Source of the DNA: a virus
Reading direction: 5' to 3' (one strand)
DNA length: 39,178 bases
IMG/VR virus record: IMGVR_UViG_3300038361_000164
Location: 171,086-210,263 of that record
The notes below the pieces were generated by a model that was given only the letters and a program-made list of their open reading frames with translations, was not told where the DNA came from and did not search any database. Positions within the stretch are counted from its first letter, which is position 1, and every line of letters begins with the position of its first letter. A program made the translations under genes and the position numbers. Below are positions 5,643 through 8,650 of this stretch, one piece after another.

Positions 5643-6401
5643 CTAGTTTACGTCAGAAGGTCCATTCTCATCTTCATAATCAAGGATCATTTCCATGACT
5701 AGTTTACCGTAGTAAGGATATCCTCCCTCTCCAGTATGCATAAAACCTTCACTATTTCTAGCATCAATAGCATATGAAAGAGTGCAGGCGTTATTGTGTT
5801 CTTGTGACAGAATTCCAATAATTTTGGATTTAGGAAACTCTGTTTGAAGTTCAAGAATATGTTCCTCTTTTATAGGACCTTGGCTTCCTATATGTTCTCC
5901 GATAATAACATAATCCGGTTCAAAAGGTCTATCTGGATTATTTATATAGTTATTGTAATGCCATTCCATTACTGTGTTTTTTAACTTCTCAGGACGTAGA
6001 ACATCTTTTCGAGGCATATCTGTTTTTGGAGACATGTGTTTTAGGACTGTTTCTTTTTTAAAGAATAACAGCACCGGTCGCAGCTCATCGGCTTTACTAA
6101 GCCACTCTTCGTTGCTGCGTCCGTGTCTATATGCTTTGTTTATCACATATGCAAATTTTAAACATCTTGCCAACCACCTATTTACATATAGACCTTTGCC
6201 ATCACACTGTATTAACTTGTCACCCATAGTTATCATTAACTCCCTAATGACTTCATCAGTAAGCATTCCGACAACATGAGCAAACCCGTAATACGGAAAC
6301 ATCTTTTCGAGTTGTTCGTATTTTTCGATATTAGCATTGCTTAAGCGTCCTCGTCTGGTTCCTGTATGTGCTTCTTGTAAGTATGTAATATTTGTATTCA
6401 T
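5643..6401 (-). CDS. Hypothetical protein (252 aa)
   Basis: The largest leftward gene in the window. The 252-residue protein is soluble. The first half is helical and basic (K-A-Y-R-H-G-R-S-N-E-E-W). The second half contains an alternating hydrophobic stretch (D-Y-V-I-I-G-E-H-I-G-S-Q-G) and a second strand (S-K-I-I-G-I-L-S-Q-E-H-N), suggesting an alpha/beta Rossmann-like fold. It has no familiar catalytic signature. It has its own promoter (E3) and terminator, so it is monocistronic. Trp codons are TGG only. Function unknown. Confidence 0.75.
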   Translation of the reverse strand: MNTNITYLQEAHTGTRRGRLSNANIEKYEQLEKMFPYYGFAHVVGMLTDEVIRELMITMGDKLIQCDGKGLYVNRWLARCLKFAYVINKAYRHGRSNEEWLSKADELRPVLLFFKKETVLKHMSPKTDMPRKDVLRPEKLKNTVMEWHYNNYINNPDRPFEPDYVIIGEHIGSQGPIKEEHILELQTEFPKSKIIGILSQEHNNACTLSYAIDARNSEGFMHTGEGGYPYYGKLVMEMILDYEDENGPSDVN

Positions 6402-6451
6402 TCTTTATCTTCCTTTCTTTTTTTTTGATAATTAAGATTTGATTACATACT

Positions 6452-6470
6452 ATTCTTATACCAATTTTAA
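6452..6470 (-). promoter_or_regulatory. Early-type promoter E3
   Basis: The minus strand reads TTAAAATTGGTATAAGAAT, matching the shared TTGGTATAAGAAT core. It sits between the terminator of the large RNA unit and the SD (AAAGGAAG) of the 252-aa gene. Confidence 0.7.
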
Positions 6471-6473
6471 GCT

Positions 6474-6504
6474 AAAAAAAGAGAAGGGGGTCCGTCTCTT
6501 TTTC
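6474..6504 (-). terminator. Intrinsic terminator ending the 1.2-kb RNA unit
   Basis: On the minus strand AAAAGAGA pairs with TCTCTTTT around a 10-base C-rich loop and runs into seven T. It marks the 3' end of the transcript starting at promoter E4. Confidence 0.8.
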
Positions 6505-7690
6505 CTTACTACTAAAAATAGAAAAGAATTTACATTTAGTTGAGGTTTACACGAAAGATAGACTCGGCACTTCGTAGAAGGGCTGAACAATCTTTCTTGT
6601 TTACGTCAAGTATATGCAAATTCAATTGCCATTCTGTGAATTCTCTATACCTAGAGAGTTCTTGTTTCGTTCAGATATTCCCATACCTGCGTATGCGTAG
6701 CACATGCGTTTAAACGAATCTAGTAAAATTAAATGTTTGGGCTTTTTACTACAAAGCGGCAAGAGATGTTTAAACCTTGGTTTACTCATCTTGATTTGCC
6801 AAGTAATTAGTTGGAACCCAGGCACGTAACGTACCTGTAGACATAGTCTAGTAAAAAGTTTGGATAGTTATTTATCACTAAAGAAGTACGGTTTCGAATA
6901 GTATACCCTACGTATTATGGTTTGGCTGGATACTTGCGGGTTAAGACGAGCTTATTGTGGGACCGCAGTCCCATTCAAGCGCTGTCTTATCCGGCGCTAA
7001 GTAGTCGGTCGAAACATAATACACTTGGTATACTAAGTGGAACCTGGTTCTCTCGAACATACTCTATGTTCTTTGTTTAAGTCTGTTAGTTTACAGACTT
7101 CCATATGCGAAACGCATCTGTTAAACGGTCTAATAAATAAGTTGGTTTTCCTTCACTACTAAAGGTCGAAGAAGCTTCTCTTATTCGCGGCTATTTACAT
7201 TTCATCCTTCTGAGAGTACTTCACCGTAGAGACACTTCGTAAAAGTTAATCCTTGAATAACTTTGCGGAGGGTTTCCTGAAGTAGGATCAGAAGGGTACA
7301 ATGAAACGGAAATAGGGGTGAATTCGTTGGGACCAGAGGAGATTCGAGATCTTTGGATGGAGACCATATCGAATAAAGGAATAATCGTTCGGACATGCTG
7401 TTCGACCGTTTACCGATGTTGGAGTTCCGGCATTAAGATTTAAGGCTGGAACGACCTAACCCGGTAAATGGTTCGGGACAGTGTCTGAATGTTATACCAT
7501 ATTTTGATATGCGGAAATAAGTAAACAGTAGCCTTACGCGGTTGTTTACGGTTTCCTTGTCTGGAGTTATTAACGAAAAAGAAATAAGTCAATAACGATC
7601 AAATGCGAAACGCATCTGTGAGAATTCTAGTAAAGGTGAGTCCGTAGGTGAAACGGACTCTAAAAGAAAGGAATATAACATGAGGTCATA
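6480..7690 (-). ncRNA. Large structured non-coding RNA unit (~1.2 kb)
   Basis: No SD-led reading frame of useful length occurs on either strand, although the unit has a promoter (E4) at one end and a terminator at the other. Many stable hairpins are visible: GAGTCCGT/ACGGACTC at 7638-7660 near the 5' end, ATGCG-AAA-CGCAT twice (7603-7615 and 7105-7117), GTCTGT/ACAGAC at 7081-7098, and a CAGGTACG/CGTGCCTG stem near 6820. TCTAGTAAA-type boxes recur at 6719, 6847, 7129 and 7626. CTACTAAA-type boxes recur at 6508, 6746, 6875 and 7155, suggesting a modular or repeated RNA. It resembles in size and setting the large phage RNAs GOLLD and ROOL, but I cannot assign a family. Confidence 0.6.
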
Positions 7691-7697
7691 TTACATA

Positions 7698-7715
7698 ATT
7701 CTTATACCCTATAAT
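7698..7715 (-). promoter_or_regulatory. Early-type promoter E4, drives the 1.2-kb RNA
   Basis: The minus strand reads ATTATAGGGTATAAGAAT, sharing GGTATAAGAAT with the other early sites but lacking the TTGG upstream pair. It lies about 35 bases before the first strong hairpin of the RNA unit. Confidence 0.6.
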
Positions 7716-7725
7716 ATTTTTTTAG

Positions 7726-7764
7726 TTGGTAAGCTCGAAGGTGAATCGAGCTATTTGTTACCAA
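7726..7764 (-). terminator. Long hairpin at 3' end of second RNA unit
   Basis: TTGGTAA and TTACCAA form the outer stem and AGCTCGA/TCGAGCT the inner stem. No U run follows on the minus strand, so this may be a 3' end structure or a Rho-type or processing site rather than a classical terminator. It immediately precedes promoter E4. Confidence 0.55.
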
Positions 7765-8143
7765 ACCCATTATAAGGAGAGCTGTAAACTAAGCAATACC
7801 CAAATTCTCGATATTACTTCTCTGTTACAGGGATGAATGAAAGGTTGTCTGTCACGATCCGCTAAGATCATAACTATAGGATTCCATTAACTGGAGCCTG
7901 CCCATTATCCCGGGCCAGTTACTTTATTTGTGGAAAGTATAAACCTGTGGGTTGAATCTCACCTATGAGCAGTTAATTGACAAATACTCGATTCAGAACG
8001 ACAAGCGTTCAAAGCAGAAGCGTAGAGCAGGAAGATAGAGAGATGGACTCTACGCCATGGATATTCGTCCGAAGACAAATATCGTAAATCAATCTCGGAG
8101 GGCTAAGTATGTGTGGCCACACAATATAAGCAATCTCCGAGTA

Positions 8144-8251
8144 TTAAAGACACTGTCGTACCGAGACTCGAACTCGGGAAGGACTCAAAGTCCCACTGTC
8201 CGCTTAATTTGTACTCCAGGGCGATCAGGACCTGGCCACGCAGTTCTTTAA
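8144..8251 (-). ncRNA. tRNA-like segment, not a canonical tRNA
   Basis: A perfect T-arm (CCGAG-TTCGAGT-CTCGG, 8161-8177) follows a long variable-arm-like hairpin (GGACT-TTG-AGTCC). A D-arm-like hairpin (CAGG/CCTG) lies upstream. The ends pair through TTAAAGA/TCTTTAA and an ACTGCGT/ACGACAGT stem with one bulged base. The stretch where an anticodon arm should be (about 8200-8215) does not form a proper stem, so no anticodon can be read. It could be a degenerate class II tRNA or a tRNA-like domain of the larger RNA. Confidence 0.4.
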
Positions 8252-8284
8252 TAAGTTTAAATCTTTAGTAATCTCTTACTCATC

Positions 8285-8302
8285 ATTCTTATACCAATTT
8301 TT
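8285..8302 (-). promoter_or_regulatory. Early-type promoter E5, divergent
   Basis: The minus strand reads AAAAATTGGTATAAGAAT and drives the second RNA unit. It is back to back with late promoter L1 only 14 bases away, so this short interval separates the leftward and rightward programmes. Confidence 0.65.
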
Positions 8303-8315
8303 GATAAAATAATCC

Positions 8316-8344
8316 TTTACACTTACACGGGAGTATTATATATT
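8316..8344 (+). promoter_or_regulatory. Late-type promoter L1, leaderless start
   Basis: TTTACA, 17 bp, TATATT. The start codon of the next gene lies six bases after the -10, where transcription itself should begin, so the mRNA is predicted leaderless. The upstream and spacer sequence (AAAATAATnCTTnACACTTACA, then CGGGAG) is shared with L4 at 21535. Confidence 0.75.
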
Positions 8345-8350
8345 AACAAT

Positions 8351-8650
8351 ATGGACAAATCTACATATGTTTTCGAAAAGCTGGCGAATAAACTAAACAA
8401 TAAACCACAATGAGTTAAGGACCTTGTTCCTGGAGCTGCATCTGGAGTGGTCACTAGTTTAATGTTTCACCCATTAGATACGTTACAAGTGTTGAGACAA
8501 ACAGAGAAAAAAATGCCTAACGTAACTTTAAAAAGATTGTATAAAGGGGTAGGATTAAAATTGTTAAAGCAAGTACCTACTATGGCAGTAGGCTACGGTG
8601 TGTACGGTGCTACAAAACGATATGTGGAAAATAAGTCTTCGGTTACTTAA
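8351..8650 (+). CDS. Tagged mitochondrial-carrier-like protein (99 aa)
   Basis: With one TGA (8411-8413) read as Trp, this is a 99-residue protein. Residues 1-12 are the shared tag (M-D-K-S-T-Y-V-F-E-K-L-A). Residues 27-95 resemble one repeat of the SLC25 mitochondrial carrier family: G-A-A-S-G-V-V-T-S, then F-H-P-L-D-T-L-Q-V-L-R-Q (carrier signature P-x-D-x-x-K/R-x-R, with Gln for Lys), then Y-K-G-V-G-L-K-L-L-K-Q-V-P and a second helix ending Y-G-A-T-K-R-Y. Classical carriers have three repeats; here there is one, giving two helices. It is first in the late operon behind a leaderless promoter. The family match is by motif only; any transport role is speculative. Confidence 0.65.

Follow-up and report, generated by a model that had tools for sequence, protein, structure and literature searches.

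Four tandem retron-like template modules in a 210-kb phage, probably served in trans by a distant reverse transcriptase

We describe a gene-less stretch of a 210-kb phage (IMG/VR record IMGVR_UViG_3300038361_000164) that very probably comprises four tandem template RNAs resembling retron msr-msd, served in trans by a reverse transcriptase (RT) that the phage itself encodes about 89 kb away. Until now retrons have been known chiefly from bacteria, as defences against phages in which a single template adjoins a single RT. We describe the array as trans modules working like retron templates, and not as a complete retron, because the RT does not adjoin it. Coordinates without a prefix refer to the window, that is, the whole 39,178-nucleotide stretch of the record that was analysed.

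Results

A strongly folded unit without a gene

An earlier note on this DNA had read 6480-7690 as a unit running from promoter to terminator, and on these points our analysis of 7690-6474 (minus strand) agrees with it. At 7698, where it placed a promoter, there is a promoter-like box, GGTATAAGAAT, that is recurrent in this phage: the window has five exact copies, against 1.1 expected at up to one mismatch (a count reached in 2 of 100 shuffles), and the whole phage has 15, every one on the minus strand. The copy beyond the unit's end is kept in related phages (best E 3e-11). The terminator that the note placed at 6474-6504 consists of an inverted repeat and a run of T (Table 1). A coding score based on hexamers, with training on these phages, assigns no gene to 6402-8461, and by this score no noncoding gap in the 210 kb is larger; the unit is thus gene-less, as had been claimed, and we rejected a protein-coding reading of the stretch for lack of coding signal. 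The many hairpins noted earlier are reflected in folding z-scores of -7.1 for 7180-7690 and -5.8 for 6474-7180, with no shuffle equally stable in either case. We also located the recurrent boxes (TTTACTAGA at 7634, 6855 and 6727; TTTAGTAGT(A/G)A at 7163 and 6516), and the exact repeats 498 bases apart are the copies of a 17-base repeat inside 7102-7121 and 7600-7619.

The surroundings of this unit hold further features. Just upstream, a second structured noncoding stretch (8290-7720, minus strand, z -4.0), which the earlier note does not mention, has its own promoter box and starts with a tRNA-like fold; it has no Rfam match. The next gene, of 252 aa, has a homologue of 34-36% identity in relatives. 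Short proteins above the cut-off for Pfam Mito_carr (mitochondrial carrier) occur in the window (8447-8650, plus strand, 26.9 bits) and elsewhere in these phages (L091 17977-18321, 54.3 bits; L106 2000-2380, 32.1 bits). Separately from these surroundings, L005 10435-12120 (plus strand) is a long collagen-like repeat that was missed by ORF scoring, with in-frame TGA codons just upstream.

Table 1. Positions of the array, its modules and related features
Feature	Position	Strand	Remarks
Promoter-like box GGTATAAGAAT of array	7698-7708	-	recurring copies in phage
Module B1 (487 nt)	7150-7636	-	a1 CCTTTACTA 7628-7636, G 7627, a2 TAGTGAAGG 7150-7158; p 0.013
B1 triloop hairpin CAGATGCG-TTT-CGCATTTG	7600-7618	-	predicted from five aligned modules
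Module B1b (273 nt)	6868-7140	-	a1 TTATTTATTA, G 7130, a2 TGATAAATAA; p 0.023
B1b triloop hairpin	7102-7120	-	one internal mismatch
B1b long msd-like hairpin	7053-6880	-	preceded by three small hairpins
Module B2 (117 nt)	6742-6858	-	a1 CTTTTTACTA, G 6848, a2 TAGTAAAAAG; p 0.007
B2 triloop hairpin CAGGTACG-TTA-CGTGCCTG	6819-6837	-	
Module B3 (225 nt)	6504-6728	-	a1 TTTTACTA, G 6720, a2 TAGTAAGG; z -4.9
B3 triloop hairpin	6689-6707	-	one internal mismatch
B3 long msd-like hairpin	6635-6515	-	
Intrinsic terminator of array	6474-6503	-	inverted repeat 6476-6487/6492-6503, then T7
Next gene (252 aa)	5643-6401	-	matches no family; has a promoter box of its own at 6452
Module directly upstream of RT	L006 8848-8680		a1 CAGTTATA, a2 TATAACTG
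Module downstream of RT	L006 5653-5355		
Modules D1 and D2	L007 11368-11131 and 10721-10465		phage tRNA region; found via 70-base similarity

Anatomy of the four modules

The TACTAGA and TTTAGTAGT boxes pair with each other: they are the two arms of the stems that close four successive modules. These modules share a plan, in which a stem formed by a1 and a2 encloses small hairpins, one of them with a triloop, and a hairpin before a2 that is long (174 nt in B1b, 125 nt in B1, 121 nt in B3) except in the shortest module, B2, where it has merely 45 nt. The published msr-msd RNAs have 1-3 hairpins of 7-10 bp with loops of 3-10 nt, together with a long imperfect hairpin, and their complementary ends reach as far as the priming G or the base just 5′ of it, mostly in the context TAGC, with CAGA known in Eco2 (PMC6868368). 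In the array, complementarity of a1 and a2 extends over 8-10 bp in each module (the retron criterion is 8-30 nt), msr-like hairpins are present in all four (criterion: 1-3, of 7-10 bp with small loops), and a1 ends in TA directly 5′ of a G in four out of four, the context of this G being UAGA (TAGA in the DNA) throughout, as against the usual UAGC.

When single modules were folded without constraint, B1b, and likewise D1, D2 and M5652 (the last a module of the RT cassette), gave three small hairpins followed by a long one, all within a closing stem; the folds of B2 and B3 are variants of this plan, and that of B1 has two large branches instead of one msd. Three of the four modules are clear or fairly clear; B2 is short and perhaps degenerate. 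Single a1/a2 stems are just modestly improbable, as in B3 (p 0.18, two G-U pairs included) and D2 (p 0.28); in B1, B1b and B2 the pairing is retained with differing sequences. The triloop hairpin, the first in the module, is predicted when five modules are aligned, and four of its eight pairs show compensatory changes; this covariation rests on few, partly diverged copies because no homologue of the array was found in another phage. Region Y of the Eco1 RT recognises an msr stem of 8 bp whose loop is UUU (PMC6868368).

A retron RT with modules of its own

The phage RT gene (L006 7741-8661, equal to record bases 87741-88661) firmly encodes a retron reverse transcriptase: the protein scores 247.9 bits with NCBIfam retron_St85_RT (cut-off 235), matches PADLOC RT_XIII at 1e-76 and retron RTs of the PDB at 8e-38, and carries the YADD and VTG motifs. 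Beside the array itself RT is absent; two other modules, one on each side of the gene, do share the RT cassette. A gene of the Pfam GP88 family is conserved in this cassette, between the RT and the downstream modules (L006 6793-6059; L121 16745-16014).

RTs of this type occur in 5 of 16 related records, and in about a dozen IMG/VR contigs they are 42-51% identical to that of the phage; bacterial genomes yield no more than about 40% identity among the best 80 matches, and cultured phages at most about 34% among the matches listed. In the relatives, too, modules accompany the gene. They lie end to end beside it: G022 has a single module upstream of the gene and four or five downstream of it, G020 one or two upstream and two downstream (up to four in all), L306 two upstream and one downstream, and L299 and L309 two each. 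In G034, candidate modules are also found among the tRNA genes.

Candidate modules at three loci of the phage

The phage contains about nine candidate modules at three loci, mostly distant from the RT. Triloop hairpins centred on CG-NTN-CG with all six outer pairs number five in 210 kb; all five are in noncoding gaps that hold modules, one of them near the RT gene. A blind finder gave 12 hits in the phage, B1 and B2 among them, versus 0.7 in Markov shuffles of the whole phage, with a background in real sequence such that about half of the 12 are antisense or within genes. With other settings, it recovered B1, B1b and B2. As a positive control, L315 holds an Ec86-like retron, which the same anatomy singles out.

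Anatomy strongly supports the view that the modules of the window and those adjacent to the RT are of one kind; cross-phage sequence homology does not back it. A DNA search of cultured phages found no array homologue, one of 36 relatives found none beyond the promoter region, and pattern scans of IMG/VR gave nothing, or chance matches without flanking hairpins. By synteny, the relatives that were read have no large RNA between the leftward and rightward genes.

The neighbours of D1 and D2 merit separate description. Tandem YrlA-like Y RNAs are present at L007 11500-10030 (minus strand), L144 19980 and 19820, and L145 99; in several, tRNA-like parts stand in circularly permuted order (3′ half, TTCG, 5′ half) and are enclosed by a conserved stem, GTTTGGCTAT-N8-CTTCCTTCTA...N8'-GATTTCCAAAC. 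The permuted elements beside D1 and D2 match YrlA, a bacterial Y RNA, below the gathering score; they lie outside the window unit, and RF02553 (YrlA) has no match in the window. The YrlA match led us to reject a reading of these neighbours as self-splicing permuted tRNA introns, and no Ro60/TROVE protein for them was found in the phage. We also noted tmRNA genes (L007 4475-4855; L113 16897-17268; L122 15541-15943; L144 19007-19330); these phages carry them besides some 20-30 tRNAs, one with anticodon CTA.

Palindrome-packed putative template regions

Another observation concerns the far end of the RT cassette, where an a1/a2 pair, CGACTTGCA / TGCAAGTTG (L006 5336-4630, minus strand; modest in the a1/a2 test, p 0.017), encloses GC-rich sequence crowded with 6-bp palindromes. 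Similar regions, bracketed by a1/a2-like stems, lie downstream of the RT in L298, L299, L300, L303, L304, L306 and L309. Across the eight downstream-most template regions, all from phages of this RT clade, there are 216 6-bp palindromes versus 83 expected (z 16.3). Of the 64 kinds that can exist, 60 occur, and palindromes that have one central base show almost no excess (z 1.9). In six of these phages (L299, L300, L303, L304, L306 and L309) the blind finder supplied the boundaries; for this phage and for L298, whose outer boundary is uncertain, we drew them knowing where the palindromes were. The other 19 modules, including the four of the window, have no palindrome excess (85 versus 80 expected). 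We rejected the idea that the palindromes are elements of RNA structure: taken together, those of six regions show no preference for paired or for unpaired positions.

Discussion

From this anatomy we infer that the array would be transcribed, processed, primed and copied into DNA as follows. Its RNA would start near 7698 and stop at 6474, and each module would fold with a1 paired to a2; the phage RT, encoded some 89 kb off, would recognise the triloop hairpin, prime from the 2′-OH of the G just after a1 and use the long hairpin as template for DNA with a 2′-5′ branch (msDNA); several different DNAs could thus come from a single array RNA. As to purpose, our guess is that such multicopy DNA occupies or misleads host proteins, for example defence nucleases.

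Retrons such as Retron-Eco1 (Ec86) and those of the St85 RT family resemble this system in RT family, in the a1/a2 stem before a G, in the triloop msr hairpin and in the long msd-like hairpin; here, however, many candidate templates at three loci go with one RT, the context of the G is UAGA and the carrier is a 210-kb phage. A precedent in arrangement is Retron-Nex1 (Ne160), in which several duplicated msr-msd repeats have no RT within a kilobase (PMC6868368); the difference is that our phage encodes an identified RT elsewhere in its genome, and that in its relatives tandem modules stand beside the RT. The Nex1 repeats have been interpreted as repeated duplication and insertion (PMC6868368), and our modules could likewise be decayed copies or passive repeats, scars of past RT copying that produce no msDNA. 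The shortness of B2 and the imperfect triloop stems of B1b and B3 would fit this reading. We nevertheless consider it unlikely, given that different sequences keep the a1/a2 pairing in three modules, that folding is far stabler than in shuffles, and that a promoter box and a terminator are present.

The earlier note had favoured a giant structured RNA, in the manner of GOLLD and ROOL, which are found in phages, often near tRNA islands (PMC12286853). Much of that description stands: about 1.2 kb of noncoding, strongly folding sequence runs from promoter to terminator in some four repeating modules, in a phage with a tRNA array and tmRNA. In a single ornate RNA of this or a new class, the modules would be subdomains of one particle. 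This part of the claim is not supported, and we judge it very unlikely: the covariance search that the note had proposed finds neither GOLLD nor ROOL, nor any other Rfam family, in the window at gathering or permissive thresholds; the modules are separable and match those beside retron RTs; and D1, D2 and M5652 recur singly elsewhere in the phage, which makes the modules independent units. The position of D1 and D2 between YrlA-like permuted tRNA elements, and of candidate modules among the tRNA genes of G034, might instead suggest modules that help to process or recognise the phage's Y-RNA/tRNA array and have no part in reverse transcription. This is extremely unlikely, in that no Y RNA separates the modules of the window array, such modules also flank the retron RT in several phages, and the phage is without a TROVE/Ro60 gene. 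Retron-like templates used in trans thus remain our preferred reading.

For the palindrome-packed template, we would guess that its DNA distracts enzymes of restriction or methylation by offering them decoy sites. This guess has to face the single-stranded nature of msDNA and the lack of any pairing preference among the palindromes; for Retron-Sen1, a double-stranded product has been described (PMC6868368). Extended to this family of large phages, it is a tentative and rather doubtful proposal that the many-template retron is a counter-defence, in which the RT copies tandem and dispersed templates, the DNA of the downstream-most one carries nearly all 6-bp palindromes as a decoy library for host restriction or methylation enzymes, and the msDNAs of the window array come in addition, possibly aimed at defences of other kinds.

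A literature search found no paper on phage-encoded multi-template retrons, which is weak evidence of novelty since subscription journals were thinly covered; as far as we found, phages with many dispersed retron templates are undescribed. If our reading is correct, retrons would here be used by the attacker, with the phage supplying an RT and many templates, both tandem and distant. Such phages would offer natural examples of RTs that act on distant templates, which could serve the design of DNA-writing tools, and the modules would account for puzzling gene-less regions of phages.
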